From: Catenulispora acidiphila DSM 44928 | Lineage (GTDB): Bacteria > Actinomycetota > Actinomycetes > Streptomycetales > Catenulisporaceae | Direction of reading: 5' to 3' | NCBI RefSeq assembly: GCF_000024025.1 | Contig: NC_013131.1 | Span: 8,226,229-8,290,228, forward strand | DNA length: 64,000 nt | In this document: one piece after another, positions 1 to 51,284 of the stretch | Layout: every line of letters begins with the position of its first letter | Position numbering within the stretch: the stretch's first letter is position 1 | Notes under the pieces: model-generated | The model's database searches: none | What the model was told of the DNA's origin: nothing | What the model saw: only the letters and a program-made list of their open reading frames with translations | Program-made: the position numbers and the translations under genes

Positions 1-693
1 CAGGTGAGCGCAGGCGTCGCGCAGAGCTTGGCGCAGCTTGCCGGCCAGCCGCTGGAGCGCGTTCGGACCGGCGAGGACCTCGGGCGGGCGGTGGACGGAG
101 AGCGTCGCGGCATCGGGGGTGTCGTCGGGGGCGGGGCGGAGGCGGCCGGTGATGCGCAGGCGGGTGGACGGCAGGAACTGCCAGGCGCCGGGGTCGGAGG
201 CCAGAGCTGTGGCGGGAAGCCGGGTGCCGAACTCGTTGACGCGCTCGATGCGCAGGGGCACGACGGCGAAGGGTCCGTGCAGGGAGGTCGCGATGTGCGG
301 GTCGTCGGTGACGACGGCTTCGACGGTCGCCTGGGCGTGCGCGGCGGCGAGGCGCGGGAGCGGGCCGGTGTGGGTGGCGATGGTGCGGGTGGTGGCGGCG
401 GTTCCGGCGCCGGCCGCGACGAAGCAGGCGGCGGCGAGGGTGCGGCGGCGGGTTCTGGTGCGGGTCGGGGTGGGGTCGGTGCGGGTGGCGGGTCGGGCAG
501 GGCCGCTGCTGCGGAGAAGAAGGCTCGCGCCGACCGCCGCGCAGGCTACCCAGAGCAGGAGTGCCACCTGCGAGGTGAACCCGTTGCCGACGAAGGCTGC
601 GACGTACGCGGCCAGCAGGATCGGCACGAGGCGCAGGTCGCGACGTGGACGCTGGTCGTGATCGACGGAGCGGTAGGTGGCGGTCAGACTCAT
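1..693 (-). CDS. comEC: ComEC/Rec2 DNA-uptake channel, N-terminal part (cut by window edge)
   Basis: This is the first 231 residues of an ORF that runs off the left edge. The N-terminus shows two closely spaced hydrophobic segments (about residues 18-60), an Arg/Thr-rich stretch, then a soluble segment with the pattern of the extracytoplasmic DUF4131-type region that precedes the Competence domain in ComEC. The ATG at 691-693 lies 4 nt after the comEA stop, so the two are probably one operon in the order comEA-comEC, as in many bacteria. ComEC forms the inner-membrane channel for single-stranded DNA in transformation. The catalytic and channel regions lie outside the window, so the assignment rests on position and the N-terminal pattern. 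Confidence 0.72.
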   Translation of the reverse strand, partial: MSLTATYRSVDHDQRPRRDLRLVPILLAAYVAAFVGNGFTSQVALLLWVACAAVGASLLLRSSGPARPATRTDPTPTRTRTRRRTLAAACFVAAGAGTAATTRTIATHTGPLPRLAAAHAQATVEAVVTDDPHIATSLHGPFAVVPLRIERVNEFGTRLPATALASDPGAWQFLPSTRLRITGRLRPAPDDTPDAATLSVHRPPEVLAGPNALQRLAGKLRQALRDACAHL

Positions 694-31043: not shown

Positions 31044-31113
31044 ATCCGGGGGTGATGGGCCATGCTGGATACCGACAGGTAACCTCGGCCCACCCACGAA
31101 GGGCACGATCTCC

Positions 31114-31593
31114 ATGGCCTCCACCCCCGACCTCGGCGTCCCCGCTCCCGACTTCACGCTGCCGGGCATCGTCCTGTCCGGCACGGAGGTCGAGCGGCGC
31201 GACTTCACGCTGTCCGCGCACCGCGGCAAGCCGATCGTGCTGGCCTTCTATCCCGGCGACGACACTCCTGTGTGCACCAAGCAGATGTGCGCCTACAACA
31301 ACGAGCTGGAGAAGTTCGCGGACATCGGCGCCGAGGTCTGGGGCATCAGCCCGCAGGATCTGGACAGCCACGAGAAGTTCGCGCAGCGGCACGGACTCCA
31401 GCAGCCGCTGCTCGCCGACCCGGCCAAGACCGTGATCCAGCAGTACGGCGTCGGGCTGAAAGCCTTGGGCCTGAAGCGATCGGTGTTCCTGGTCGACGCC
31501 GAGGGCGTGCTGCGCTGGAAGCATGTGGCGACGTTGGGCTTGAAGTTCCAGTCGGTCGACACGCTGACCGCGCAGATCGCCGCGCTGGCCTGA
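31114..31593 (+). CDS. bcp: Thioredoxin-dependent peroxiredoxin, Bcp/PrxQ type
   Basis: A 159-aa AhpC/TSA-fold protein. The peroxidatic Cys is in DDTPVCTKQMC, with a second Cys five residues later, the spacing of atypical two-Cys PrxQ/Bcp enzymes. The catalytic Arg lies in LKRSVFLVD. It reduces hydrogen peroxide and organic peroxides in the cytoplasm using thioredoxin. It is a monocistron or the start of a short run with the Nudix and Sir2 genes. Confidence 0.92.
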   Translation: MASTPDLGVPAPDFTLPGIVLSGTEVERRDFTLSAHRGKPIVLAFYPGDDTPVCTKQMCAYNNELEKFADIGAEVWGISPQDLDSHEKFAQRHGLQQPLLADPAKTVIQQYGVGLKALGLKRSVFLVDAEGVLRWKHVATLGLKFQSVDTLTAQIAALA

Positions 31594-31641
31594 GACGGCC
31601 GGCGGCCCGGCGCCCGCGAGGCGGCAACTACCCTGAGAAGC

Positions 31642-32142
31642 ATGCCGTTGCCCGAAGGCCCGTACGCCCGCCGCACCGCCCGCGTCCTGCTGATGGACAA
31701 GGAAGACCGCCTGCTGCTGTTCAAGTTCGGCAGCCGCAGGCGGAACCACGTCTGGCTGACTCCCGGCGGCGGCATCGACGAGGGCGAGGCGGTGAACGTG
31801 GCGGCGGCCCGCGAACTGCGGGAGGAGACCGGCTTGGTCGTGACGCCGGAGCAACTCGGCGAGGTGGTCGCCACGACGGGCGGCTACGCCGAACTCGGCA
31901 GCTGGATCAAGGGGAACATCCGCGAGGACTTCTTCTTCCACCGCGTGGATTCGCTCAATATCGACAGCAGCGGTTTCACCGACTACGAACGCAAGGCCAT
32001 CGCCGAAATCCGATGGTGGTCGGTCGCGGACCTGGAGTCCACTGCCGAGAACGTCGTTCCCTGGGGTCTGGTGCCGCTGCTGAAGTCCCTCCTGCGCGAC
32101 GGTCCGCCGGCAAACTTCGTCGAGTTGCCCTGGCACCACTGA
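31642..32142 (+). CDS. Nudix hydrolase
   Basis: A 166-aa protein with a complete Nudix box, GGGIDEGEAVNVAAARELRE then ETGL (about residues 42-65), matching GX5EX7REUXEEXGU. Nudix enzymes hydrolyse nucleoside diphosphates linked to another moiety; the substrate is unknown here. TACCCT lies 7 nt before the ATG, so the transcript may be leaderless; no Shine-Dalgarno is clear. Confidence 0.92.
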   Translation: MPLPEGPYARRTARVLLMDKEDRLLLFKFGSRRRNHVWLTPGGGIDEGEAVNVAAARELREETGLVVTPEQLGEVVATTGGYAELGSWIKGNIREDFFFHRVDSLNIDSSGFTDYERKAIAEIRWWSVADLESTAENVVPWGLVPLLKSLLRDGPPANFVELPWHH

Positions 32143-32155
32143 CTACGCTGTGCGC

Positions 32156-32917
32156 ATGACCACCGACTGGCGCAGCCGTAAAGGTCCGATCGGAGTCCTG
32201 ACCGGTGCGGGCATCAGCACCGATTCCGGCATCCCGGACTTCCGGGGACCAAGGGGAGTCTGGAGCAAGGACCCGATCGCCGAACTGCTGTCGACGTACG
32301 CCAACTACGTCGCCGATCCGGAGCTGCGGCAGCGGGCCTGGCTCGCCCGGCGGGACAACCCGGCGTGGCAGGCCAAACCGAACGCCGCCCACAAGGCGCT
32401 GGCAGATCTGGAGCACTCCGGCCGCTCGGTGCGGATCATCACGCAGAACATCGACCGGCTGCACCACCGCGGCGGGTCCTCGGCGCGCAAGGTGATCGAG
32501 ATCCACGGGAACATGTTCGACGTGGTCTGCGTCCAGTGCAGCTACCAGACCACGATGGAGACGACGTTGCAGCGCGTCGCCGACGGCGAGGCCGACCCGC
32601 CGTGCCCGTCCTGCGGCGGCATCCTGAAGGCCGCGACCATCATGTTCGGGCAGAACCTGGACCCGGCCTCGCTCTGGCAGGCCGAGCAGGTCGCCGAGGC
32701 CTCGGAGATCTTCCTGGCGATCGGCACCTCACTGCGCGTGGAGCCCGCCGCCTCGCTGTGCGAGGTGGCCGTGTCCCACGGCGCCGACCTGGTGATCGTC
32801 AACAACGAGCCGACGCCGTACGACCCGTTGGCCACCGAAGTGATCCGCGAGCCGATCGGCGAGGCGGTGCCGCGCATCGTCGCCGAACTGATCGCCGCCG
32901 AGAACGGGACGCTGTAG
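32156..32917 (+). CDS. Sir2-family NAD-dependent protein deacylase
   Basis: A 253-aa sirtuin. Motifs are GAGISTDSGIPDFRG (about residues 15-30), TQNIDRLH, the catalytic His in EIHGNMF, a four-Cys zinc site (CVQC and CPSC) and the NAD site IGTSLRVEPAA. It removes acyl groups from lysines, coupling enzyme activity to NAD. TACGCT lies 6 nt before the ATG, which suggests a leaderless mRNA; an in-frame GTG lies two codons upstream. The neighbouring Nudix gene could act in the same NAD metabolism, but that is inference. Confidence 0.93.
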   Translation: MTTDWRSRKGPIGVLTGAGISTDSGIPDFRGPRGVWSKDPIAELLSTYANYVADPELRQRAWLARRDNPAWQAKPNAAHKALADLEHSGRSVRIITQNIDRLHHRGGSSARKVIEIHGNMFDVVCVQCSYQTTMETTLQRVADGEADPPCPSCGGILKAATIMFGQNLDPASLWQAEQVAEASEIFLAIGTSLRVEPAASLCEVAVSHGADLVIVNNEPTPYDPLATEVIREPIGEAVPRIVAELIAAENGTL

Positions 32918-36760: not shown

Positions 36761-37674
36761 CGGGCTTCTCCTGCGGCGTATTCGACGGCGTCGGCGGTCA
36801 GTTCCATGAACGCCTTCTCCAGCGAGGCGTTCTGCGTGGCGAGCTCGGCCAGCATGATGTCGTTGCGCCAGGCCAGCTCGCCGATCCGGGCGGCGGTCAG
36901 GCCCAGGACGGTCAGCCCGCCGGCCGCGGTGGCGGCGTCTTCGACCTCGGCGCCCTCGGCGGTCAGGATCGCCGCCAGCGCGGCCGCCTCCGGCGCCCGC
37001 ACCAGGACGGCGGCCTTCGAACCACGGCGCGAGAAGTCGGCCAGGGTCTCGTCGGCGATCAGCGCGCCGCGCCCGATCACCACCAGCCGCTCGGCGGTGT
37101 GCTCCATCTCGGACATCAGGTGGCTGGAGACGAACACCGTCCGCCCCTCCTTGGCCAGCCGCTGGAACATCTCGCGCACCCAGCGCACACCTTCGGGGTC
37201 CAGACCGTTCAACGGCTCGTCGAACAGCAGCACCGGCGGGTCGCCGAGCAGCGCGCCGGCGATGCCCAGGCGCTGCTTCATGCCCAGGGAGTAGCCGCCG
37301 ATCCGTTTGCGGCCGGCCTCGGCGAGCCCGACCTCGTCCAGCACCTCGCCGACCCGGCGCAGCGGGATCCGGTTGCTGACGGCCAGCGATTTCAGGTGCG
37401 CCACGGCCGAACGCCCGCCGTGGATGTCCTGTGCGTCCAGCAGCGCGCCGACGTGGCGCAGCCCGCGCGGCCGGTCGATGAAGCGCCTGCCGTCGATGGT
37501 GACCGTGCCGGAGGTCGGCGCGTTCAGACCGAGGATCATGCGCAGCGTGGTGGACTTGCCCGAGCCGTTCGGGCCCAGGAAGCCGGTCACCGTCCCGGAT
37601 CGGACGGTCACGGTCAGGTGGTCCACGGCCGTCTTGTCGCCGTAGCGCTTGGTGAGGTCGGTCAGCTCGATCAT
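36757..37674 (-). CDS. ABC transporter ATP-binding protein (exporter type)
   Basis: A 305-aa ATPase. Walker A is GPNGSGKSTTLRM (about residue 37), the signature YSLGMKQRLGIAGAL, Walker B VLLFDEPLNGLD and the switch His SSHLMSEMEH. The C-terminal extension is like those of CcmA/BcrA-type exporters. With the coupled permease it forms a two-gene ABC-2 exporter. It is divergent from a histidine kinase-response regulator pair across 135 bp, a layout common for stress- or antibiotic-responsive exporters. Confidence 0.92.
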   Translation of the reverse strand: MIELTDLTKRYGDKTAVDHLTVTVRSGTVTGFLGPNGSGKSTTLRMILGLNAPTSGTVTIDGRRFIDRPRGLRHVGALLDAQDIHGGRSAVAHLKSLAVSNRIPLRRVGEVLDEVGLAEAGRKRIGGYSLGMKQRLGIAGALLGDPPVLLFDEPLNGLDPEGVRWVREMFQRLAKEGRTVFVSSHLMSEMEHTAERLVVIGRGALIADETLADFSRRGSKAAVLVRAPEAAALAAILTAEGAEVEDAATAAGGLTVLGLTAARIGELAWRNDIMLAELATQNASLEKAFMELTADAVEYAAGEAR

Positions 37675-37796
37675 GCGGTCCAGCCTGCCGGTCGGGTCCG
37701 TGAACGGGCATCGGCCCGGGAGCCGCAATGGACTCGGCCGGCAGTGGCCCGGGGATGTAAGCCCGTGAGCCGATGCGCCGCGGCCCGGCAGCTGTC

Positions 37797-37802
37797 TACG
37801 AT
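37797..37802 (+). promoter_or_regulatory. TANNNT box for a probable leaderless histidine kinase mRNA
   Basis: TACGAT is followed by 7 nt and the GTG at 37810, placing the expected transcription start at the start codon. No Shine-Dalgarno is visible. Confidence 0.5.
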
Positions 37803-37809
37803 CTTGGGC

Positions 37810-39153
37810 GTGGAGAAGAGACAACGCGGCCTGTGGCTGTCGGACGGCCTGCTGGTGGTCGTCTACCTCGTGCTGGTCGCGCTGGTCACGCCGGCGCTGC
37901 GCGAGTTCCACACGATCACGGACTATCCGAACGGTTGGTACACCCCGCTGGGCGAGCAGATCATCCCGCCGGGCGGGTCGGTGACCCAGTCGACCTACCG
38001 CGCCAACAACTGGCAGCAGCTCGAGCCGACGATCTTCACGATGATCCTGGTGCCGATGCTGCGGCGCCGGCCGCTGGTCTTCGCCAGCGCCGTCTGTGTC
38101 GGCCAGGGCCTGGTCGGCTCTGTGCACGCCTCAGGCGACACCCGGTACGAGTTGCTCCTGGCGGCCGTCGCCTGCCTGGTGTCCGTCGCGCTGGCCTGGC
38201 CGCGGCGCACGTCGCTGAAGGCCGCGGCGCTCATCCTGGCCGGCGCCGTGTTCTCGATGACTGCTTTCCCTCCCGGGTCCTCGGAGATGATGCAGACGCA
38301 CGTCGTCGTAGTCACCCTGCTGACCCTGGTGGCCTGGCTGATCGGCAGCTCGATCCGCGAGCGCCGGGCCGGCGCGGTCCGGCAGCGCGCCGACGCCGCG
38401 GCGCAGGCGGTGGCGAACGAGCGCCTGCGCATCGCCCGGGAGCTGCACGACATGATCGCGCACAGCATCGGCATCATCGCCATCCAGGCCGGTATGGGGA
38501 ACCGCGTCATCGGCACGCAGCCCGCCGAGGCGCAGAAGGCGCTGCACGCGATCGAGGAGACCAGCCGGGACACGCTGTCCCAGTTGCGCCGGACCCTCAC
38601 CGCGCTGCGCCACGGGGAGAACGCCGAGACCCCGACCGACCCGGCGCCGGGCTTGGCCGACCTGGACAAGCTCGTCGCCTCGACGAAGCACGCGGGAGTC
38701 CTGGCGATCGTCGAGAGGATCGGCATCCCGCGGCCGCTGCCCGGCGAGATCGACCTGGCGGCCTACCGCATCGTGCAGGAGTCGGTGACGAACGTGGTCC
38801 GCCACTCCGGCGCCAGGACCTGCCGGGTCCGCATCGAGTACCAGGACAGCGCGGTGGCGATCGCCGTCTCCGACGACGGCCACGGCGTCCTGGGCTCCGG
38901 CGGCACCGGCTTCGGCCTGGTCGGCATGCGCGAGCGGGTGACGCTGGTCCACGGCGCCTTCGAGGCCGGTCCGCGCCCCGGCGGCGGGTTCCGGGTGTCC
39001 GCGACGCTGCCGGTACCGGGCGGGTTCGAGACCACCTACGGTGGGGCGAAGACGAACGCTGACACCGGCACTGGCACTGGCACTGGCACTGGCACCGACC
39101 CCGATCCCCGCGCGGACACCGCGCCTGACCCGAACCCGGCGGTGGCCTCGTGA
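37810..39153 (+). CDS. Sensor histidine kinase (NarL/DesK-type, HisKA_3)
   Basis: A 447-aa membrane kinase. About five membrane segments occupy residues 8-180, with a loop after the first (EFHTITDYPNGWYTPLGEQ). The dimerisation/phospho-acceptor helix has RIARELHDMIAHSIGIIAI with His at about residue 213, followed by the ATPase motifs NVVRHSGA, VSDDGHG and FGLVGMRERV. The C-terminal tail is a Thr-Gly repeat. It phosphorylates the overlapping response regulator (GTGA). The open frame extends upstream to 36742, but the GTG at 37810 fits the first membrane segment. Confidence 0.91.
   Translation: MEKRQRGLWLSDGLLVVVYLVLVALVTPALREFHTITDYPNGWYTPLGEQIIPPGGSVTQSTYRANNWQQLEPTIFTMILVPMLRRRPLVFASAVCVGQGLVGSVHASGDTRYELLLAAVACLVSVALAWPRRTSLKAAALILAGAVFSMTAFPPGSSEMMQTHVVVVTLLTLVAWLIGSSIRERRAGAVRQRADAAAQAVANERLRIARELHDMIAHSIGIIAIQAGMGNRVIGTQPAEAQKALHAIEETSRDTLSQLRRTLTALRHGENAETPTDPAPGLADLDKLVASTKHAGVLAIVERIGIPRPLPGEIDLAAYRIVQESVTNVVRHSGARTCRVRIEYQDSAVAIAVSDDGHGVLGSGGTGFGLVGMRERVTLVHGAFEAGPRPGGGFRVSATLPVPGGFETTYGGAKTNADTGTGTGTGTGTDPDPRADTAPDPNPAVAS
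39067..39096 (+). repeat. Hexanucleotide repeat in the kinase tail
   Basis: GGCACT is repeated four times, plus GGCACC, encoding alternating Thr and Gly after the kinase core. Copy-number change would keep the frame. Confidence 0.85.
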
Positions 39154-39875
39154 CCCACGACCCGATCAGCGCCCCGACCACCGGACCGCACCACCAGCGC
39201 GCCACGATCCGCGTGATCCTCGCCGACGACCAGCCGCTGATCCGCAGCGGCCTGCGGGTCCTGATCAACGACGCGCCCGACATCGAGGTCGTCGGCGAGG
39301 CCGGCACCGGCGCCGAGGCGGTCCGCCTGGCCGCCGCGCACACCCCGGACGTGGCGGTGATGGACATCCGCATGCCGGAGATGGACGGCATCGAGGCCAC
39401 CCGCCGCATCACCGAGTCCTCCGACACCACCCGCGTGGTCATGCTCACCACCTTCGACGACGACGAGTACGTCTACGCGGCACTCCGCGCCGGCGCGAGC
39501 GGCTTCCTGGTCAAGGACATGGCCCTGGACTCGATCCTGGACGCCGTCCGCGTCACCGCCTCCGGCGACGCGATCATCGCCCCGAGCGTCACCCGCAAAC
39601 TGATCGCCGAGTTCGCCATCCGCCCCGATCCCGGCGCCACCGCCCCCCGCCGAGGCGACAAGGCCCTCCTCGACGGCGTGACCGACCGCGAGCGCGAAGT
39701 CCTGACCCTCGTCGGCCGAGGCCTGTCCAACGGCGAGATCGCCGAAGAACTCTTCATCAGCGCCGCCACCGCCAAAGCCCACGTGGCCCGCCTGTTCACC
39801 AAGCTCGGCGCCCGCGACCGCGTGCAACTGGTCATCACGGCGTACGAGGCGGGGCTGGTGGCGCCATCGCGGTGA
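39150..39875 (+). CDS. LuxR/NarL-family response regulator
   Basis: A 241-aa protein with a receiver domain (ILADDQPLIRSGLRVL; phospho-acceptor Asp in VAVMDIRMPEMDG near residue 71; Lys in GFLVKDM). The LuxR helix-turn-helix is LTDREREVL-like: VTDREREVLTLVGRGLSNGE through ATAKAHVARLFTKLGARDR (about residues 175-235). It is translationally coupled to the kinase. The probable target is the divergent ABC exporter. Confidence 0.92.
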   Translation: MTHDPISAPTTGPHHQRATIRVILADDQPLIRSGLRVLINDAPDIEVVGEAGTGAEAVRLAAAHTPDVAVMDIRMPEMDGIEATRRITESSDTTRVVMLTTFDDDEYVYAALRAGASGFLVKDMALDSILDAVRVTASGDAIIAPSVTRKLIAEFAIRPDPGATAPRRGDKALLDGVTDREREVLTLVGRGLSNGEIAEELFISAATAKAHVARLFTKLGARDRVQLVITAYEAGLVAPSR

Positions 39876-40867: not shown

Positions 40868-43279
40868 TTATGGCACCGTCCATCGCTGGTTGGCGCCGCC
40901 GTTGCAGTCCCAGATCTCCAGCTGCGTGGAGTTGGCGGTATTGAACCCCGGATCGTCCAGACACTTGCCGGACCCGACGCCCACCAGCTCGCCGTTCGCC
41001 TGCGGCGCCCACTGCTGGTTCGCGCCGCCGTTGCAGTCCCACAGCTCCACCAGCGTGCCGTTCGCCGAGCCGTTGCCGGTCACGTCCACGCACTTGCCGC
41101 TGGCTCCGTTGAGTTGGAGATAACCGTTGGCCCAGAACCAGTTCTGCGCCGCGCTGTTGTTGCAGTCGTACATCTGGACGTGCGTGCCGTCGGCCGTGGA
41201 GCCGGCGTTGTCGTCCACGCACTTGCCCGCCTGCGCCGAGGTGACCGGACCCTGGTGCACGACCTGCGAGGAGCCCGGCGTGATGGAGAAGTTCGAGAAC
41301 TCCTCCGTCTGGTAGCCGGTGACGCCCAGACCCGCCTGGCCGTTCGTCCAGGTGCTGTCGTTGACGCTGCCGACGGTCTTGCCGTCCACGGACGCGGTCA
41401 GCGTCGAGCCGTTCAGCTGGAAGGCGACCGTGTGCCAGGTGTTCAGACCGAGCGAGGCGATCGTCCCGCTGGCCAGCGTCGTGAAGTTCCACGCGTTGTC
41501 GCTCTTGACGATCGACCACGCGCCGGAGTTGCCGACCCGGAGGTGGTAGGCATTCAGCCCGTTGTTGTTCGTGCCCTGCAAGTTCGCCCGACCGATCAGC
41601 TCGACGCTGCCGGCCTGCTCGAACAACGCATCGGTCTTGACCGTGTAGTTCGACCACGTCTGATCGCCGATCAGCGTGTACGGCGCGTCATAGGACTCGC
41701 CGGTCCAGCGGATCGGCTGGTACGCCGCCATCTGACGCAGGCACGTCCCGGCCCGCCCGGCGTCGCACGGCGCGGTCTGGAAGGCGCCGTTCATGTCCGA
41801 GAAGTACAGCGGGGAGGTGGTCGTGGCCGCGGTGTTGAAGGTGTTCGTATACGGCAGCGGCATCGCCGAGGCGGCAGGCGGCGACGTGACGCCCTTGCCC
41901 TGCCCGGTGGTCGTGGTGAACGTGTAGACGTAGCCGGGCTGCAGGGTCACCGTGTAGGACCCGCCGGACGGCGTGACGTCTCCACTGTGCACGAACCAGT
42001 CGGAGGAGCTGCCGGAGTTCACGTTGGTCTGCCACACGTGCACCGCCCCGCTCGACAGACCGCCGGCGACCTTCACCGTCATCGTCTGCGCGGCGGTGGC
42101 GTCCATGGTCTCCACGACGGTGCTGTAGTCGCGGCCGTTCGACGACTTCAGCGACACGTAGCTGCCGTTGGCGCGGTTCCCGCCGAGGAATCCGCTGCCG
42201 GAATCAAGGTACTTCCATCCCGGCGCGGTGAACTGCGAGGTCTGCGCCATGACCCAGGTGGTCTTGCCTATGTAGTAGTTGCCGGACCACGGCTGGTTCG
42301 CGATCCCCAGTCCCTGGTCGGCGTAGTGCAGGTTCGGGTAGATCGCGGACACCAGCGGCCAGTTGATGTACGCGGTCATCTTGCCGTCGATGTAGTCGCG
42401 GTTGAGGGCGCGGGCGATACTCGGGGCGCCGAACGTCGAGCTGCCGTCGGTCGACTCCGAGCCGTTCTCGCTGGCCCACAGCGGTTTGTTGAGATTCACC
42501 GCGTTGGAGGTGCTGGTGCACGACGTGAAGGCACTGCCGTAGCCGCAGGGATAGTGGACGCCGACGATGTCCACCGCGTTGTTGAACGAGGAGTCCGAGG
42601 TCATCGTGTCGGCGACGCCCCAGCCGCTGTCGGCTCCGACCACCTTGGTGGCGCCGTAGCCGTGCGAGACCAGCGCGCTCTTGAGGTTCTCGTACCAAGC
42701 GGCGTTGTAGTCGCGCTCGTTCCAGCCGCCGAGGTAGTCGACGGGCAGATTGTGCTTCGCGGCGCAGCCGAACCAGTCCATCAGATAGTTGATGGTGTCG
42801 GTGGACCAGAAGCCGCCGTTGATCCAGCCCGGGGCACCCCAGGCCAGACCGTAGATCTTGATGTTCGGGTTCCGCGCCTTGGCCTGCTCGGCGAGCCACC
42901 ATTCGTAGCCCTGGTTGCAGTCCACGACGCCGCGGCTGTGCTCGTGCGAGGCCTCGGCGCCGTCGGTGGAGTTGGTGTCGCCGCCGATCTCGATCTTCAG
43001 GATCTGCAGCGAGGCGCCGTACCCGGGCTTGAACAGGTAGTCCAGGATCTGGGTGCGTTCGGGCTCGGGATAGTCGACCAGCAGGCGGGAGTTCCCTCCG
43101 CCGCCGCTGATCGCCCCGATGCCGTCGAAGGTGCGGCCGGCGGAGCCGCCGTCGACCGTGACGGTGGTGGACGTGGCCGCGTGGGCCGGCGGGGAGGCGA
43201 CGGCCCAGGTGGTCAGGATGCTGAGGAGGAGGGTGAGGGTGGCGGCGAGCGCGGTGCGTTGTCTAGCTGCGGGGGACAT
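40868..43279 (-). CDS. Secreted GH59 galactocerebrosidase-like hydrolase with ricin-type lectin domain
   Basis: An 803-aa secreted enzyme. A Sec signal peptide (cleavage after AHA near residue 35) is followed by a GH59 core beginning VTVDGGSAGRTFDGIGAISG, with LLVDYPEPERTQILDYLFKP and SLQILKIEIGGDTNSTDG as in animal galactosylceramidase. The acid/base Glu is in GGWNERDYNAAW (about residue 186) and the nucleophile Glu in PLWASENGSES (about 270). A beta-sandwich follows, then a lectin-like region. The C-terminus is a CBM13 ricin-B trefoil with three Gln-x-Trp motifs (QNWFW, QQWAP, QRWTV). Likely substrates are terminal beta-galactosides of glycolipids or polysaccharides. Start 43279 is chosen for its GGAG site and signal peptide. 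Confidence 0.88.
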   Translation of the reverse strand: MSPAARQRTALAATLTLLLSILTTWAVASPPAHAATSTTVTVDGGSAGRTFDGIGAISGGGGNSRLLVDYPEPERTQILDYLFKPGYGASLQILKIEIGGDTNSTDGAEASHEHSRGVVDCNQGYEWWLAEQAKARNPNIKIYGLAWGAPGWINGGFWSTDTINYLMDWFGCAAKHNLPVDYLGGWNERDYNAAWYENLKSALVSHGYGATKVVGADSGWGVADTMTSDSSFNNAVDIVGVHYPCGYGSAFTSCTSTSNAVNLNKPLWASENGSESTDGSSTFGAPSIARALNRDYIDGKMTAYINWPLVSAIYPNLHYADQGLGIANQPWSGNYYIGKTTWVMAQTSQFTAPGWKYLDSGSGFLGGNRANGSYVSLKSSNGRDYSTVVETMDATAAQTMTVKVAGGLSSGAVHVWQTNVNSGSSSDWFVHSGDVTPSGGSYTVTLQPGYVYTFTTTTGQGKGVTSPPAASAMPLPYTNTFNTAATTTSPLYFSDMNGAFQTAPCDAGRAGTCLRQMAAYQPIRWTGESYDAPYTLIGDQTWSNYTVKTDALFEQAGSVELIGRANLQGTNNNGLNAYHLRVGNSGAWSIVKSDNAWNFTTLASGTIASLGLNTWHTVAFQLNGSTLTASVDGKTVGSVNDSTWTNGQAGLGVTGYQTEEFSNFSITPGSSQVVHQGPVTSAQAGKCVDDNAGSTADGTHVQMYDCNNSAAQNWFWANGYLQLNGASGKCVDVTGNGSANGTLVELWDCNGGANQQWAPQANGELVGVGSGKCLDDPGFNTANSTQLEIWDCNGGANQRWTVP

Positions 43280-43333
43280 GAGCACGCTCCAACAAATTCG
43301 ACTACGAATAAACGCCATCGATCGCAATCGCAC

Positions 43334-43362
43334 AGGTTAAGCGCGTTGTCACCCATCGTCAA
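43334..43362 (-). promoter_or_regulatory. Sigma-A-like promoter for the GH59 gene
   Basis: On the minus strand TTGACG (43357-43362), a 17-bp spacer and TAACCT (43334-43339) make a near-consensus promoter. The start codon is 55 nt downstream of the -10 box. The -35 lies in the left arm of the inverted repeat at 43358-43398. Confidence 0.65.
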
Positions 43363-43398
43363 CACCGTCTTCACGGCGCGTCCCCGGACGGTGTTGAC
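43358..43398. promoter_or_regulatory. 12-bp inverted repeat overlapping two divergent -35 boxes
   Basis: GTCAACACCGTC (43358-43369) and GACGGTGTTGAC (43387-43398) are perfectly complementary with 17 bp between. Each arm carries the -35 hexamer of one of two outward-facing promoters, so a protein bound here could control both. Confidence 0.65.
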
Positions 43399-43422
43399 AG
43401 ACCTCTTACATGTTCTTACTGT
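43394..43422 (+). promoter_or_regulatory. Sigma-A-like promoter facing right, with no ORF behind it
   Basis: TTGACA (43394-43399), 17 bp and TACTGT (43417-43422) form one of the best promoters in the window. No plausible plus-strand gene follows; a strong hairpin lies about 70-105 bp downstream. Confidence 0.55.
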
Positions 43423-43428
43423 CCGTGA

Positions 43429-43530
43429 GGGTTCGACTCCCGATCCGCCCGAAACCGCCCCCGGGAATCGGACACCGCCACCCAACGACGAGCGCCGGGG
43501 CGGGGTTGGTCCGCTGCCCCGGCGCTCCGG
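43429..43530 (+). ncRNA. Candidate small RNA, about 100 nt
   Basis: The span is bounded by a near-consensus promoter upstream and a 12-bp GC hairpin followed by pyrimidine-rich DNA downstream. The 5' part contains GGGTTCGACTCCC, like a tRNA T-loop, but no acceptor, D or anticodon arms, so it is not a tRNA. No ORF fits. The call rests only on promoter plus terminator spacing. Confidence 0.3.
43490..43527. terminator. Strong hairpin downstream of the AlkZ-like gene
   Basis: GAGCGCCGGGGC (43490-43501) pairs perfectly with GCCCCGGCGCTC (43516-43527) over a 14-nt loop. It can end minus-strand transcription from the AlkZ-like gene and also plus-strand transcription from the promoter at 43394. Confidence 0.7.
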
Positions 43531-43584
43531 TTCTGGTTCTGGTCTGGTTCCGGTTCTGGTTCCGCGTCGCTCCGCGGCGTCGTC

Positions 43585-44748
43585 TCAGCCCTCGGAGATC
43601 TCGCGCTCCAGCGGCGTCCGGAACCGCGGCGTCACCCGGTGCTCCCCCAGCGCCGTCTGACACCGCTCGGTCTCCACCGCGATCGCCTTCTCCGCCTCGC
43701 TCCCGACGTCCCGCAGCAGCCTCGTCGCCACGGTCCCGTCAGCACGCTGCGCCCAGCCGCCGACGACCTCGCCGTTCCACCACACCGTCGGTCCCACGTT
43801 CCCCGCGCGGTCGAACAGCGGCGGCCGGATCTCCTCAGCGAGGTACCACTCGCGCGCCTGCCAGCCCATCGCCGTCGGGTCGAGCCCGGGCAGGAGGGCA
43901 GCCCACGGCTCGGGCGCCGCGACCTCGTCCAGGTCGTCCGGCAGCACCCAGCCGACACCGGTGCCGACAGCTACCTGCACCGCGTTGACCGCCTTCAACG
44001 CCTTGCGGGCGTCGGTCACCTTCCAGCCGGTCCACCACTTCAGATCCGCCTCGGTCGCCGGACCGAACGCCCGCAGCCAGCGGCGTGCCAGCTCCGCCTG
44101 GGCGTCCGCGACCGCGATCTCCGCGTGTCCGGCGCCCGGCTCCCACCGGTGCTGGCTGGACAGCCACGAGCCGACCGGACGCCCGCGCACCACGGCGCCG
44201 TCGAAGCCGAGCACGCGCAGCACGCGCCCCGAGGCCGGCTGCCAGGCCTCCCACTTGGTGCCCTTGCCGTACAGCACCTGGTCCCGCAGCCCAGCCACCG
44301 CCTTGCCCAGCTCAGCGCCGGTCGCCGATCCGCGCCGCTTGACCTCGGCGACCGTCTCCGCCTCGACGCGCTCCAGCCAAGCGGCATCCAGCCCGGCGGC
44401 CACGGCGTTCTTCAGCAGCAGACCGCGTTCCTTGCCCCACATCTCACGCGTCGTCGAAGCCTGCACCACCGGAGCCAGATCAGCCGGGACCACGAACAGC
44501 GTCTGCCGCATGCCGTGCATGCGGACCAGTGTCCGGTCGTCGTAGAGCGCGCGCTCGACGTCGGCGGTGTCCGGCTTCTCCAGCCGGGCCAGCGCCGAGA
44601 GGTAGACCGTCGCGGCGTCGGTGGAGTGCAGCGCGACGAGCGCGTCGACCACCGCCTCCGGTGTCGCCGCCCTGCGTCCGGGAGCCAACAGATGTCGCGA
44701 CGCCAGCCGTGCCCGGCGTTCCCCGTCGTTCACCACGCGTGAATTCAC
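43585..44748 (-). CDS. Winged-helix DNA-binding protein, HTH_42/AlkZ-like
   Basis: A 387-aa protein of the family that includes the DNA glycosylase AlkZ. Characteristic features are the N-terminal LHSTDAATVYLSALARL, LVRMHGMRQTLFVVP, central winged-helix repeats (FGPATEADLKWWTGWKV) and the C-terminal WYLAEEIRPPLFDRAGN followed by VWWNGEVVGGWAQR. AlkZ unhooks interstrand crosslinks, but many homologues have unknown function, and I cannot confirm the QxQ-type catalytic motif. GTG start at 44748, overlapping the small membrane protein's stop (GTGA). Confidence 0.85.
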   Translation of the reverse strand: MNSRVVNDGERRARLASRHLLAPGRRAATPEAVVDALVALHSTDAATVYLSALARLEKPDTADVERALYDDRTLVRMHGMRQTLFVVPADLAPVVQASTTREMWGKERGLLLKNAVAAGLDAAWLERVEAETVAEVKRRGSATGAELGKAVAGLRDQVLYGKGTKWEAWQPASGRVLRVLGFDGAVVRGRPVGSWLSSQHRWEPGAGHAEIAVADAQAELARRWLRAFGPATEADLKWWTGWKVTDARKALKAVNAVQVAVGTGVGWVLPDDLDEVAAPEPWAALLPGLDPTAMGWQAREWYLAEEIRPPLFDRAGNVGPTVWWNGEVVGGWAQRADGTVATRLLRDVGSEAEKAIAVETERCQTALGEHRVTPRFRTPLEREISEG

Positions 44749-44978
44749 GCGTTCATCTTGCGCAGCCCCCGCACCGAGCGCCACCCGATCACGCCGATCG
44801 ACACCCCCGCCACCATGGACACCGCAACGAGGACCGCGTGCACGAGGAAGAAGGACGTGGGTCCGTCGTCCCAGGACCTTTTGTCGTCCCAAATGGCTTC
44901 CATGAAGCGCGGCCAGATGATCACCGACCACACTCCGAAGGCGACCAGGAACCAAGACGCGACACGCCCAAGCCTCAC
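44745..44978 (-). CDS. SCO4848-like small membrane protein
   Basis: A 77-aa protein with two membrane segments (ASWFLVAFGVWSVIIW and FFLVHAVLVAVSMVAGVSIGVIGW) joined by a charged loop with WDDKRSWDDGPTSF. This matches the actinobacterial SCO4848 family, whose function is not known. AAGGAG lies 5 nt before the GTG at 44978; another GTG two codons upstream is less well placed. It is coupled to the AlkZ-like gene. Confidence 0.82.
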   Translation of the reverse strand: MRLGRVASWFLVAFGVWSVIIWPRFMEAIWDDKRSWDDGPTSFFLVHAVLVAVSMVAGVSIGVIGWRSVRGLRKMNA

Positions 44979-45090
44979 TTGCACTCCTTACCTGGGGCGG
45001 ACCGAAAACCCGCTTCGAACCGAACATTGGATCAAGTAAATCTCGTAGACTTCGGGAGCCGCGCCCGCCCCACCCGCAGGAGGATCCCCT

Positions 45091-48000
45091 GTGTCCGATT
45101 CCTTCGTCCACCTGCACGTTCACACCGAGTATTCGATGCTCGACGGTGCGGCACGACTGAAGGACATGTTCAAGCATGCCTCCTCGTTGGGCATGCCGGC
45201 GGTGGCGATGACCGACCACGGGAACATGCACGGCGCGGCCGACTTCACCAAGCAGGCGATGGCCGCGGGCATCAAGCCGATCCTCGGCATCGAGGCCTAC
45301 GTGGCGCCGGAATCGCGCTACAACGCCAAGCCGGTCCGCTGGGGTCAGCCGCACCAAAAATCCGACGACGTCTCCGGTGGCGGACTCTACGGGCACGCCA
45401 CCATCTGGGCCCAGAACGTCACCGGTCTGCAGAACCTCACCAAGCTCTCCTCCCGCGCCTTCACCGAGGGCTTCGCGCGCAAGTACCCGCGCATGGACGC
45501 CGAGCTCATGGCGGAGCACTCCGCCGGTCTGATGGCCACCACCGGCTGCCCCTCGGGCTTCGTGCAGACCCGGCTGCGCCTGGGGCACTTCGACGAGGCG
45601 CTGGCCGCCGCCGGGCAGTACCAGGAGATCTTCGGCAAGGAGAACTTCTACCTGGAGCTGATGGACCACGGTCTGGACATCGAGACCCGGGTCCGCGAAG
45701 GGCTGCTGGACATCGGGCGCAAGCTCAACATCCCGCCGGTGGTCACCAACGACTCGCACTACACCTACCGCGAAGAGTCCGCCGCGCACGACGCGCTGCT
45801 GTGCATCCAGACCGCCTCGAACATCGCCGACCCCGACCGCTTCCGGTTCGGCGGCGACGGCTACTACCTGAAGAGCGCCGACGAGATGCGGGCGATCAAC
45901 ACCGACGACATCTGGCAGGAGGGCTGCCGGAACACTCTGGCGATCGCGGAGAAGGTGAACCCGGAGGGGATGTTCGCCTACCGGAACCTCATGCCGCGGC
46001 TGGAGGCGCCGGACGGGCTGACCGAGGACCAGTGGTTCCGCAAGCTCGCCTACGACGGCCTGAACAAGCGGTTCCCGGCCGGCGTCCCGGACGAGAAGGT
46101 CTACCACGCCCGCCTGGAGTTCGAGCTCGACGTCATCTTGTCGATGGGCTTCCCCTCCTACTTCATCGTGGTCGCGGACTTCATCAACTGGGCCAAGGAC
46201 AACGGCATCGCCGTGGGTCCGGGCCGCGGTTCGGCCGCGGGGTCGCTGGTCGCCTGGTCCCTGGGCATCACCGACGTCGACCCGATCCCGTTCGACCTGC
46301 TCTTCGAGCGGTTCCTGAACCCCGACCGCGTCACCCCGCCCGACATCGACATCGACTTCGACGACCGCCGCCGCTCGGACGTGATCCGGTACGTCACCGA
46401 GAAGTACGGCGAGGACAAGGTCGCGATGATCGCCACCTTCGGCCGGATCAAGGCCAAGGCGGCGATCAAGGACTCCAGCCGGATCCTGGGCTACCCGTTC
46501 GCGATGGGCGACCGCATCACCAAGGCGATGCCGCCGGACGTGATGGGCAAGTCGATGCCGCTGTCCGGGGTGTTCGACAGCAACCACCCGCGCTACGGCG
46601 AGGCCGGCGAGATCCGCGGGATGTACGAGCAGGACGCGGACGTCAAGAAGGTCATCGACACCGGCCGCGGCGTGGAGGGCCTGATCCGCCAGCCCGGCGT
46701 GCACGCCGCCGGCGTCATCATCTCCCCGGAGACGATCACCGACCACGTGCCGGTCATGATGCGCCCCGCCGACGGCGTCATCATCACGCAGTTCGACTAT
46801 CCGACCTGCGAGGAAATCGGCCTGATCAAGATGGACTTCCTGGGTCTCAGGAACCTGACGATCATCACCGACGCGCTGAACAACGTGGAGACCACCACCG
46901 GCAAGCGGCTCAACACGCTGGAGTTCCCGCTCGACGACCCGCTGACCTACGAGCTGCTGTGCAAGGGCGACACCCTCGGGGTGTTCCAGCTCGACGGCGG
47001 GCCGCTGCGCTCGCTGCTGCGGCAGATGCGCCCGGACAACTTCGAAGACGTCTCGGCCATCATCGCCCTGTACCGCCCCGGGCCCATGGGCGCGAACTCG
47101 CACATCAACTACGCCGAGCGCAAGAACAACCGGCAGCCGATCACGCCGATCCACCCGGAGCTGGAGGCGCCGCTGAAGGAAGTCCTCGGCGTCAGCTACG
47201 GCCTGATCATCTACCAGGAGCAGGTGATGGCGGCCGCGCGAGTGCTCGCCGGCTACTCCCTGGCCCAAGCGGACCTGCTGCGCCGGGCGATGGGCAAGAA
47301 GAAGAAGGAAGTCCTCGACAAGGAGTACGTGGGCTTCGAGAAGGGCATGGCCGACAACGGGTATTCGGCCCAGGCCACCAAGGCGGTCTGGGACGTCCTG
47401 GTCCCGTTCGCCGACTACGCGTTCAACAAGTCGCACTCGGTCGCCTACGGCTTCATCGCCTACCAGACCGCGTATCTCAAGGCGCACTATCCGGCCGAGT
47501 ACATGGCCGCGCTGCTCACCTCGACGGCGACCGACAAGGACCGCTCGGCGATCTACCTGGGCGAGTGCCGCCGCATGGGCATCAAGGTGCTGCCCCCCGA
47601 CGTCAACGACTCGCTGCACCAGTTCACCCCGGTCGGCACCGACATCCGCTTCGGGCTCGGCGCGATCCGCAACGTCGGGGAGAACGTGGTCACCTCGATC
47701 ATCGCCACCCGCAAGGCCAAGGGCCGGTTCACCTCCTTCAACGACTTCCTGGCCAAGGTGGACCTGCCGGTCTGCAACAAGCGGACCATCGAATCGCTGA
47801 TCAAGGCCGGCGCCTTCGACTCCCTGGGACACTCCCGCCGCGGGCTGATCGAGCAGCACGAGCGCGCGATCGACTCGGTGGTGGACGTCAAGAAGCAGGA
47901 GGCGCTGGGCCAGGACTCGCTGTTCGGCTCGCTGATGGACGGCGGGCAGGAGGCCATCACCGGCGGGATCGAGCTGGCCTTCTCCGACATCGAGTGGGAC

Positions 48001-48660
48001 AAGAAGGTGCTGCTGGGCTTCGAGCGGGAGATGCTGGGGCTCTACGTCTCGGACCATCCGCTCTCCGGCGTGGAGAACCTGCTGGCGTCCAAGGCGGACT
48101 GCTCGATCGCCTCGCTCACCGGGGAGAACGACCGCGCGGACGGCTCGATCGTGACCATCGCCGGGCTGGTCGCCGGGCTCGCCCGCAAGGTCACCAAGCA
48201 GGGCAACACCTGGGCCGCGGCGTCCGTCGAGGACCTCGAGGGCGGCATCGAGACGATGTTCTTCCCGCAGACCTACCAGCTGTACTCCACGCAGCTGGCC
48301 GAGGACGCGGTGGTCGTGGTGAAGGGCCGGCTGGACAAGCGCGACGAGGTGCCCAAGCTGATCGCGATGGAGGTCGCGGTCCTGGACATCTCGACCGCCG
48401 GCAGCAGCGCTCCGGTGGTGCTGCACGTCTCCGAGTCCCGGGTGATCCCGGCGACCGTGGAGCGGCTCAAGCGGATCCTCACCCGCCATCCGGGCACCAC
48501 CCCGGTGCGCATGCACCTCAAGAGCCGGGATGAGAAGGTGATCCGGTACCAGCTCGGCGACAACCTGCGGGTGGCCAACTCCCCGGCGCTGAGCTCCGAT
48601 CTCAAGGTGCTGCTGGGCGCTGGCTGCTTCGGCGCCGACCCCTCGCAGGCGGCGGAGTGA
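45091..48660 (+). CDS. dnaE: DNA polymerase III alpha subunit
   Basis: A 1189-aa replicative polymerase. The N-terminal PHP domain starts FVHLHVHTEYSMLDGAARL. The palm has VGPGRGSAAGSLVAW and the metal-binding PDIDIDFDDRRR (about residue 415). The fingers follow, then HhH and OB-fold regions, with TVERLKRILTRHPG near the C-terminus. It is the full length of actinobacterial DnaE1, the essential polymerase. The GTG start has AGGAGG 9 nt upstream. A TAGACT box at 45046-45051 may be its -10. The stop nearly abuts the nitroreductase gene. Confidence 0.97.
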   Translation: MSDSFVHLHVHTEYSMLDGAARLKDMFKHASSLGMPAVAMTDHGNMHGAADFTKQAMAAGIKPILGIEAYVAPESRYNAKPVRWGQPHQKSDDVSGGGLYGHATIWAQNVTGLQNLTKLSSRAFTEGFARKYPRMDAELMAEHSAGLMATTGCPSGFVQTRLRLGHFDEALAAAGQYQEIFGKENFYLELMDHGLDIETRVREGLLDIGRKLNIPPVVTNDSHYTYREESAAHDALLCIQTASNIADPDRFRFGGDGYYLKSADEMRAINTDDIWQEGCRNTLAIAEKVNPEGMFAYRNLMPRLEAPDGLTEDQWFRKLAYDGLNKRFPAGVPDEKVYHARLEFELDVILSMGFPSYFIVVADFINWAKDNGIAVGPGRGSAAGSLVAWSLGITDVDPIPFDLLFERFLNPDRVTPPDIDIDFDDRRRSDVIRYVTEKYGEDKVAMIATFGRIKAKAAIKDSSRILGYPFAMGDRITKAMPPDVMGKSMPLSGVFDSNHPRYGEAGEIRGMYEQDADVKKVIDTGRGVEGLIRQPGVHAAGVIISPETITDHVPVMMRPADGVIITQFDYPTCEEIGLIKMDFLGLRNLTIITDALNNVETTTGKRLNTLEFPLDDPLTYELLCKGDTLGVFQLDGGPLRSLLRQMRPDNFEDVSAIIALYRPGPMGANSHINYAERKNNRQPITPIHPELEAPLKEVLGVSYGLIIYQEQVMAAARVLAGYSLAQADLLRRAMGKKKKEVLDKEYVGFEKGMADNGYSAQATKAVWDVLVPFADYAFNKSHSVAYGFIAYQTAYLKAHYPAEYMAALLTSTATDKDRSAIYLGECRRMGIKVLPPDVNDSLHQFTPVGTDIRFGLGAIRNVGENVVTSIIATRKAKGRFTSFNDFLAKVDLPVCNKRTIESLIKAGAFDSLGHSRRGLIEQHERAIDSVVDVKKQEALGQDSLFGSLMDGGQEAITGGIELAFSDIEWDKKVLLGFEREMLGLYVSDHPLSGVENLLASKADCSIASLTGENDRADGSIVTIAGLVAGLARKVTKQGNTWAAASVEDLEGGIETMFFPQTYQLYSTQLAEDAVVVVKGRLDKRDEVPKLIAMEVAVLDISTAGSSAPVVLHVSESRVIPATVERLKRILTRHPGTTPVRMHLKSRDEKVIRYQLGDNLRVANSPALSSDLKVLLGAGCFGADPSQAAE

Positions 48661-48662
48661 GC

Positions 48663-49277
48663 ATGGAATTCCAAGATGTGATCCGCAAGCGGAAGATGGT
48701 CCGGGCGTTCACGACCGAGCCCATCGCGCCGGAGGTGAGCGAGCGCCTGCTGCGCGCGGCGAACCGCGCGCCGTCCGCGGGCTTCTCGCAGGGCTACGCG
48801 ATGCTCGTGCTGGAGTCCGCCGAGGACCGTACCGCCTTCTGGGAGGCGATGGATCCCGAGGGCGAGTACGAGGGCACCGCGCTGCGCAACGCCCAGATGA
48901 TCGTGATCCCCTGCTCCAACAAGGAGATCTACATCGACCGGTACGCCCGCCCCGACAAGGGCTGGACGGACCGGGACGAGGCCCGCTGGCCGGTGCCCTT
49001 CTGGCACATCGACACCGGCATGCTGACGATGCTGCTGCTGCTCGCGGTGGTCGAGGAGGACCTCGGCGCGCTGTACTTCGGGATCCCGCCGGAGTCGATC
49101 GGCAACGTGCGCGCCGAGTTCGGCATCCCGGCGGAGTTCACGCCGATCGGCGCGGTCGCCATCGGGCATCCGGACCCCGACCGGGACGCCCGGCAGAAGA
49201 CGTCGCGCAAGACCATCAAGCGGCGGACGGTCGAGGACATCACGCACCGCGGGCGTTGGCACACCGACGCGGAGTGA
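48663..49277 (+). CDS. Nitroreductase-family FMN oxidoreductase
   Basis: A 204-aa protein. The start EFQDVIRKRKMVRAFTTEPI and LLRAANRAPSAGFSQGYAML are the FMN-binding pattern of the family. FGIPPESIGNVRAEFGIPAEFTPIGAVAIGHP forms the C-terminal part. The substrate is unknown. It begins 3 nt after the dnaE stop and is probably cotranscribed; GGAG lies 5 nt before the ATG. The co-transcription with dnaE has no obvious functional reason. Confidence 0.88.
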   Translation: MEFQDVIRKRKMVRAFTTEPIAPEVSERLLRAANRAPSAGFSQGYAMLVLESAEDRTAFWEAMDPEGEYEGTALRNAQMIVIPCSNKEIYIDRYARPDKGWTDRDEARWPVPFWHIDTGMLTMLLLLAVVEEDLGALYFGIPPESIGNVRAEFGIPAEFTPIGAVAIGHPDPDRDARQKTSRKTIKRRTVEDITHRGRWHTDAE

Positions 49278-49340
49278 CGGGGAGGCGGTGCGGATGTCCG
49301 TGGCCGGAAGCCGCTTGCGGCGGTCTGCGACAGTGAGACT

Positions 49341-50162
49341 GTGATTTCCTTCGCTGAGCTGGCCGAAGTAGAAGACATCATCCGTTCCGTCAACGAGAAG
49401 ACGGTCCTGCCGCGCTTCCGGGCCCTGCGCGACTCCGACGTCGTCATGAAGGGCCCGAACGACCCGGTCACCGTCGCCGACCGCGAAGCCGAGGACCAGC
49501 TGCGCGAGCGCCTCACGGCGTTCCTGCCCGGCTCGGTCGTGGTCGGCGAGGAGGCGGTGTCCGAGGACGCCTCGGTGCTCGCGGCGCTCACCGGCAGCGC
49601 ACCGGTGTGGATCGTCGACCCGATCGACGGCACCCGCAACTTCGTCGCCGGCTCGGGACGCTTCTCGACGCTGGTGGCGCTGTCCGTCGGCGGCGTGCTG
49701 CTCGCTTCCTGGACGTACGCGCCGGTTCTGGGCCGCATCGGTACGGCGCTGGCCGGTCACGGCGCCCAGGTGGACGGCGTGCCGGTCCGGGTGGCAGCGG
49801 CTCCGGCTGACGGCACGCCGACGCTACCGGTCACCACCAGCCACCCGGTCTGGTGGCCGAACGGCTACGGCCGCGGCGTGGACGCGATGCGCGCGGCGGA
49901 TCTGGACGTGCGCTACTTCGACGCGTGCGGCATCGAATACCTCGACCTGGCCGCCGGATCGCGCTCAGCGATGGTGATCACATGGGAGTTCTGCTGGGAC
50001 CACGCCGCCGGGCTGCTGCTGGTCGCCGAGGCGGGCGGCCACGTCGCGGCGCTGGACGGCGCGCCGGTGCGGCTGGAGGGCGGCAACGTGCTGCCGTTCG
50101 TCGCCTCCACGGACCAGGCGACGACGGATCGGATACGGACGCTCATCGTGGAGTCGAAGTAG
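49341..50162 (+). CDS. hisN: Inositol monophosphatase-family phosphatase, probably histidinol-phosphatase HisN
   Basis: A 273-aa protein with the metal-site motifs VVVGEEAV, WIVDPIDGTRNFV (about residues 88-100) and WDHAAGLLLVAEAGG (about 215-230). This is the Mg-dependent IMPase fold. Actinobacterial members of this length are often HisN, which makes histidinol, but inositol-phosphatase or other sugar-phosphatase activity cannot be excluded by eye. GTG start. Confidence 0.75.
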   Translation: MISFAELAEVEDIIRSVNEKTVLPRFRALRDSDVVMKGPNDPVTVADREAEDQLRERLTAFLPGSVVVGEEAVSEDASVLAALTGSAPVWIVDPIDGTRNFVAGSGRFSTLVALSVGGVLLASWTYAPVLGRIGTALAGHGAQVDGVPVRVAAAPADGTPTLPVTTSHPVWWPNGYGRGVDAMRAADLDVRYFDACGIEYLDLAAGSRSAMVITWEFCWDHAAGLLLVAEAGGHVAALDGAPVRLEGGNVLPFVASTDQATTDRIRTLIVESK

Positions 50163-51069: not shown

Positions 51070-51284
51070 GGCTGGGCTTGTGACTTGTGGCTTGCGGCTC
51101 TTGATCTAGAGCAGATCACCGCCCCAACCCCAGCCCGATCCGCCAAGGCAGGGACGCCAGAGGCCATCAACACCCTGCGCGGAGCTGTAAGAAAACGCCT
51201 TTCAACCACGCACACAACCGCCGCCGAAACGCCTACACGGCACCGCGCCCAAAACGCCCGAGCCCGACTCGCGCACCCGCCCGC

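Follow-up and report, generated by a model that had tools for sequence, protein, structure and literature searches.

The promoter-like element P2, which lies beside the GH59 gene of Catenulispora acidiphila DSM 44928, is probably the orphaned promoter of a deleted divergent GH3 gene, and the span around it the scar of that gene loss; from the sequence comparison, a probability of about 0.75 was assigned to this reading. Deletion of the divergent gene is the best account because the whole gene stands behind P2 in one relative (G004, the only such genome), a stub of it in another (G006), and leader-like remnants in genomes from which the gene is missing (the window's own, G005 and G001/G002). 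The geometry of P2 is conserved as well. The window is the whole stretch of 64,000 nucleotides that was analysed, and all coordinates without a genome or locus label refer to it.

Promoter region of the GH59 gene

The following features were assigned between the GH59 gene and the convergent AlkZ-like gene:

40868 to 43279, minus strand: GH59 galactocerebrosidase-like gene (Pfam Glyco_hydro_59, 6.5e-111; ATG at 43279)
43296 to 43309, no strand: candidate operator in the 5' leader of GH59, a palindrome with the sequence ATTCG-ACTA-CGAAT (sequence comparison)
43334 to 43362, minus strand: promoter P1 on the GH59 side (-35 TTGACG, 43362-43357; 17-nt spacer; -10 TAACCT, 43339-43334)
43358 to 43369, no strand: left arm of the 12-bp inverted repeat, GTCAACACCGTC (sequence)
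43387 to 43398, no strand: right arm of the 12-bp inverted repeat, GACGGTGTTGAC (sequence)
43394 to 43422, plus strand: promoter P2 (-35 TTGACA, 43394-43399; 17-nt spacer; -10 TACTGT, 43417-43422)
43450 to 43458, plus strand: CGAAACCGC, 27 nt beyond the -10 of P2, a putative relic of the GH3 5' leader
43490 to 43527, plus strand: GC-rich hairpin whose 12-bp stem pairs perfectly, a candidate terminator for transcripts from either side (sequence and fold)
43585 to 44676, minus strand: AlkZ-like gene (Pfam AlkZ-like, 1e-73), converging on the hairpin (stop codon 43587-43585; 44676 is the limit of the stretch searched and not a determined start)

The GH59 protein carries a signal peptide (judged by eye) and a C-terminal ricin-B lectin domain of the CBM13 type (Pfam Ricin_B_lectin, 1.4e-24). 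Beyond AlkZ lie a small ORF that matches no Pfam family and a DNA polymerase III alpha subunit gene. Repeats of the GGTTCTGG type fill positions 43526-43565 between the hairpin and AlkZ, and similar arrays were seen elsewhere in the genome.

The initial annotation had described two promoters facing outward with their -35 boxes in the arms of an inverted repeat, the right one lacking a coding gene and running into a 12-bp GC hairpin. The sequence bears this out: the arms are complementary at 12/12 positions with 17 nt between them, the TTGAC of a -35 box (5/6 bases) lies within each arm, the hairpin follows 67 nt after the P2 -10, and no coding gene was found on the plus strand from P2 to AlkZ, the stretch between P2 and the hairpin included. 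The pattern TTGAC[AG]-16..18-TANNNT occurred at two sites in the 64-kb window, exactly P1 and P2, and in 30 first-order Markov sequences with a mean of 0.23 and a maximum of 1; TTGACA-17-TACTGT, the form of P2, had a single occurrence across the whole 10.47-Mb genome. A built-in consensus scan called neither promoter nor terminator at P1, P2 or the hairpin, because both -10 boxes agree with TATAAT at 3/6 positions (limit 4) and because the scan requires a T-run, of which the hairpin has none.

Two other candidates on the plus strand were rejected. A leaderless micro-ORF (GTG, 43426-43428) would start too near the -10 and is absent in G008. The stretch GGGTTCGACTCCC after P2 resembled a tRNA T-arm; ARAGORN found no tRNA in the window, and a genome search with 43250-43600 returned, besides the query itself, seven matches, all in the right edge of the hairpin and the GGTTCTGG repeats.

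Conservation in the genus Catenulispora

Ten Catenulispora genomes were compared, that of the window (G000) and G001-G009. A GH59 orthologue was present in 10/10, with 72-93% identity in the other nine. The ten orthologue upstream regions were aligned, GH59 paralogues being excluded and the G004 region being taken from a second contig. P1 was found as TTGACG-17-TANNNT in 10/10 genomes; with the same -35, the same spacing and a TANNNT -10 throughout, the earlier assignment of the left promoter to GH59 holds. P2, as TTGACA-17-TANNNT, was found in 7/10 (G000, G008, G009, G003, G005, G004 and G006). G007, G001 and G002 have kept GH59 and P1 and lack both P2 and the hairpin. Conservation of promoter and hairpin in relatives with the GH59 gene had been suggested as a check of the unit; among the ten GH59-bearing genomes, that of the window included, the outcome was mixed, with P2 kept in 7/10 and the hairpin of the window in 4/10 (G000, G008, G009 and G003). 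The comparison supports P2 as a conserved promoter-like element that has no coding gene in the window.

The phylogeny was taken from a DnaE tree, since relationships in the acidiphila clade did not emerge from the GH59 protein tree (ten genus and four outgroup rows of 60 loci). The DnaE tree covered eight genomes, without G004 and G006, and was rooted on G005, which was represented by 48% of the columns; the placement of G000 had support of 67/72. G007 paired with G008 (bootstrap 99/98), and G001/G002 with G009/G003 (98/99). P2 and the hairpin have been lost at least twice, because G007 is the sister of G008 and G001/G002 are sisters of G009/G003, which keep both.

Among the four hairpin-bearing genomes the 31-bp core of P2 has undergone at least six changes, all outside the 12 bases of the hexamers (P 0.053), which gives a hint of continuing selection on P2 and counts against the loss account. 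P2 of G000 is identical to that of G008, G009 and G003 at 28, 29 and 28 of 31 positions, respectively (P 0.07, 0.02, 0.05); this is only slightly above the identity at fourfold sites (0.78, 0.78, 0.77), which are themselves biased by codon use. The conservation of P2 appears compatible with a working promoter and is no proof of one.

In G009 and G003 (L070, L071) a block of AlkZ, the small ORF, DnaE and a nitroreductase-like gene (window 43585-50162) is inverted; an inositol-phosphatase-like gene belongs to the inverted block in G009. Names in the block other than AlkZ and DnaE were given from sequence only. With the AlkZ block inverted away, P2 and the hairpin remain beside GH59 in both genomes; the inositol-phosphatase-like ORF ends right beside the hairpin in G009, and G003 looks alike by eye.

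GH3 gene and proposed leader remnants

The 20-mer that encloses the GH59-leader palindrome was found with up to three mismatches at 11 places in 10/10 genomes, all before GH59 (11 places for ten genomes reflect two overlapping contigs in G004), and this search led to the second contig of G004, a metagenome-assembled genome (MAG). The contig carries, in order, the 5' end of GH59 with its signal peptide, P1, P2 and a complete, GTG-initiated ORF of 969 aa that starts 91 nt after the P2 -10. Its domains (GH3 N, PA14, GH3 C, Fn3-like, ricin-B) point to a secreted GH3 beta-glucosidase-like enzyme. The GH59 and GH3 genes, both of which encode lectin domains, are oriented divergently, their start codons about 250 nt apart. 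Divergently transcribed pairs of glycoside-hydrolase genes occur in Actinobacteria; the arrangement in G004 is of this kind, whereas the window retains one partner only.

An S41 peptidase gene (L152:111-1085) follows in G004, between GH3 and the apparent 3' end of AlkZ. It does not occur at this place in the window, and none was found between GH59 and AlkZ in the other genomes where this stretch was read. At the edge of the contig the last 25 nt read ERELAEG* (our translation), against EREISEG* at the C-terminus of AlkZ in the window. As both flanks appear to match, the site in G004 is apparently the same intergenic region as that of the window with two genes added; the shortness of the AlkZ-end match, 25 nt, counts against the loss account.

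In G006, an incomplete genome (77% complete), about 14 GH3-like codons begin 86 nt past P2, after which the likeness stops; the stub VRVRDLLTAVALAARG is identical to VRTRALLTAVALTAGA of G004 at 11/16 positions. G005 has P2 and the leader, followed by AlkZ without a GH3 gene. In the window, CGAAACCGC agrees in register with G005 at each of its 9 bases, its offset from the -10 being equal within 1-2 nt (P 0.00135, uncorrected), and the match to G004 and G006 extends over 7 bases (P 0.016, 0.021). G001/G002, from which P2 is gone, carry CGAAACAACATATTC, which agrees with CGAAACAACAAATTC of the G004 leader at 14/15 positions, a score reached by 1/2000 shuffles. The leader match of G008 is weak (P 0.05-0.22), and none was seen by eye in G009/G003; both points weigh against the loss account. 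The GH3-leader motif was confined to this locus and was found within three ungapped mismatches in 2/14 family genomes (G004, G006); G005 carries it with a one-base insertion. For a short word common to the GH59 and GH3 leaders, CAACAAAT, shuffling did as well in 88, 52 and 35 of 1000 trials for G004, G005 and G006, respectively, and the word is no more than a lead.

A move of the G004 GH3 orthologue to another place was considered and rejected: the best other full-length match had 66% identity (G008), and all such matches lie at other places, as do partial matches of up to 71% (G000). Neither P2 nor the leader was found upstream at 11 other loci with GH3 matches, where several proteins begin further upstream and the stretch read is not always promoter. 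Outgroup GH59 loci (tblastn, E 1e-20, limited flanks) had no divergent GH3 in any other genus; at L097 (Actinacidiphila guanduensis) a distant GH3-like stretch with 25-41% identity lies on the GH59 strand, downstream of that gene.

Another GH59-GH3 neighbourhood of the genus was noticed in G008:C47, in which a GH59 paralogue and a GH3-like gene (30384-32771 and 37079-39622) share a strand and are separated by about 4 kb. A dispersed repeat with the core GGCGTTTTCTTACNGCTNCGCGC was also noted: 36 copies with up to two mismatches in 6/10 genus genomes, 18 of them in G008, including three inverted pairs 0.6-0.9 kb apart (nine loci and the window were aligned). The copy in the window lies at 51177-51199 on the minus strand, and one in G006 (C108:14669-14691) roughly 230 bp past the point where the broken stub of GH3 lies.

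From these comparisons the following history is proposed. Ancestrally, P1 would have driven GH59 leftward and P2 a secreted GH3 beta-glucosidase-like gene rightward, with a leader of about 90 nt. The GH3 coding sequence would have been deleted in the C. acidiphila lineage, bringing P2, a worn stretch of leader and the GC hairpin next to one another in the space that separates GH59 from the convergent AlkZ. P2 is probably still a binding site for RNA polymerase; if so, an untranslated RNA of about 100 nt would end at the hairpin, most likely as a by-product.

Hairpin and predicted transcript

The stem of the hairpin (43490-43501/43516-43527) is complementary at 12/12 positions. RNA of 43485-43532 folded with -36.1 kcal/mol (z -3.94; 0/200 shuffles as good), and the fold is strong on both strands; the full-length putative RNA, 43428-43535, stands out less (z -2.21; 5/200 shuffles as good). 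A T-run, as in an intrinsic terminator, is absent: the hairpin is followed by CGGTTCTGG on the plus strand and by GTCGTTGGG on the minus strand. Actinobacterial terminators without T-runs exist, and by its position the hairpin would also suit termination of the convergent AlkZ transcript. G008, G009 and G003 have one changed stem base each relative to the window; the changes are one-sided, C-G to U-G in G009/G003 and C-G to C-A in G008. No compensatory pair was found in the hairpin, a comparison of little power with four genomes and three distinct sequences. The hairpin found at a similar position in G005 is unrelated. By eye, no such hairpin as that of the window was seen in G004, which speaks against the loss account.

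Alternative explanations

The initial annotation had also considered control of both promoters by one regulator through the inverted repeat, which as an operator would occlude both -35 boxes. In the window the symmetry is perfect over 12 bp, and given two divergent -35 boxes the chance of seven further symmetric bases is about 1.3e-4. Perfect inverted repeats of such size are not rare in the window, where nine were listed (arms of at least 12, gaps of 3-40) against 0-2 per Markov sequence (n=10); GACGGTGTTGAC has eight occurrences in the genome, two of them the arms here (one for a backwards control). The symmetry is conserved neither in sequence nor in spacing: the repeat is perfect in the window genome only, 1/7 of those with both promoters, contiguous symmetry beyond TTGAC amounts to 7 bases in G000, 4 in G004, 2 in G003, 1 each in G008, G005 and G006 and 0 in G009, and the gap between the P1 and P2 -35 cores varies from 29 to 63 nt. 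Left and right arms paired within species matched at 29/49 positions against a mean of 23.1 for swapped species (P 0.033), which would be a faint signal, insufficient for an operator. The palindrome of the GH59 leader is better conserved (intact symmetry in 6/10 genomes, a single mismatch in G008, symmetry lost in G004, G005 and G006) and appears the likelier candidate operator. Joint control of P1 and P2 through the repeat is thus very unlikely, and that part of the annotation is not upheld. A wider regulon was also sought with the GH59-leader 20-mer or the GH3-leader motif; neither was found away from this locus (10, 1 and 14 genomes searched).

P2 might instead be kept for the aid it gives to P1 and not for any RNA, through divergent promoter coupling (supercoiling or recruitment of polymerase) or as an upstream activator site for GH59; a 10-bp direct repeat inside P2, TCTTACATGT/TCTTACTGTC (by eye), was proposed as a basis for the latter. 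The unchanged hexamers, and a core conserved in four genomes while its flanks diverge, would fit such a role. G007, G001 and G002, however, have GH59 and P1 without P2, G004 and G005 have, by eye, not conserved the direct repeat in the spacer, and P2 identity exceeds that of fourfold sites only slightly; this role is judged improbable. A small-RNA gene of about 100 nt, co-regulated with GH59 and acting on the GH59 or AlkZ mRNA or in trans, would draw on the uniqueness of the P2 sequence in the genome, the strength of the hairpin, the constancy of the 12 hexamer bases among four genomes, and the joint presence of P2 and hairpin in 4/7 genomes of the acidiphila clade with joint absence from the other three; their staying together in G009/G003 could likewise be read as a unit worth keeping and counts against a scar. 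The body of the RNA, however, aligns poorly (by eye) and differs in length across the G000, G008 and G009/G003 lineages (G009 and G003 are alike in this stretch), two independent complete losses occurred in close relatives, the one-sided stem changes show no compensation among three distinct sequences, and the window has no Rfam match at gathering thresholds. Neither conserved sequence or compensatory structure nor a described RNA family was found, and poor body conservation, absent compensatory change, no Rfam match and repeated loss together make a needed small RNA unlikely. Of the roughly 100-nt small RNA suggested earlier, the non-coding promoter-hairpin unit stands; a dedicated small RNA is possible and, in view of the poor body conservation, the two losses and the former GH3 gene, is not favoured. 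If P2 fires, a short by-product RNA is likely.

Possibly, the GH3 gene was gained late, by insertion behind a P2 that already stood alone. The intact gene is present in one MAG only and the stub in one incomplete genome, and the outgroup GH59 loci that were examined show no divergent GH3, as late gain would have it; the promoter and leader in the other genomes would then lack a purpose. We infer loss and not gain, a polarity that draws on the remnants within the genus. There is also a slight chance that P2, after loss of GH3, joined the hairpin to form a new non-coding RNA gene, still induced with GH59 and acting, for example, antisense to AlkZ read-through; if this were true, the genus would show each step in the birth of a small RNA from the promoter of a deleted gene.

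Comparison with known systems

In a screen of Sinorhizobium meliloti, the excerpted report of which names orphan promoter/terminator pairs in intergenic regions as predictors of small RNAs (PMC2573895), and in an excerpt on Erwinia that restates the criterion (PMC4070566), the signature is a promoter with a co-oriented terminator 40-500 bp away in an intergenic region, and the span described here resembles it. It differs from the pairs of such screens, as these excerpts present them, in that comparison supplies a former coding gene and repeated loss, and in that the hairpin has no T-run. For pseudogenes of Sodalis glossinidius, residual transcription of dead genes is described in the excerpted report (PMC7067036). 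Persistence of transcription where genes have decayed would be common to both cases, here putatively; unlike the pseudogenes of that excerpt, the coding sequence here would have been deleted and not broken. A literature search found, by title and the start of the abstract, no paper on bacterial promoters that outlast the loss of their gene and serve as a source of RNA.

Significance

A promoter-terminator unit without an ORF, a common criterion in the prediction of small RNAs, can arise by mere deletion of a gene. In one genus the apparent stages can be compared directly, from the whole gene through a stub and a bare promoter to a deleted promoter, and the locus lends itself well to the question of whether such remnants continue to be active or become RNA genes. 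For GH59, a former partnership with GH3 is indicated.
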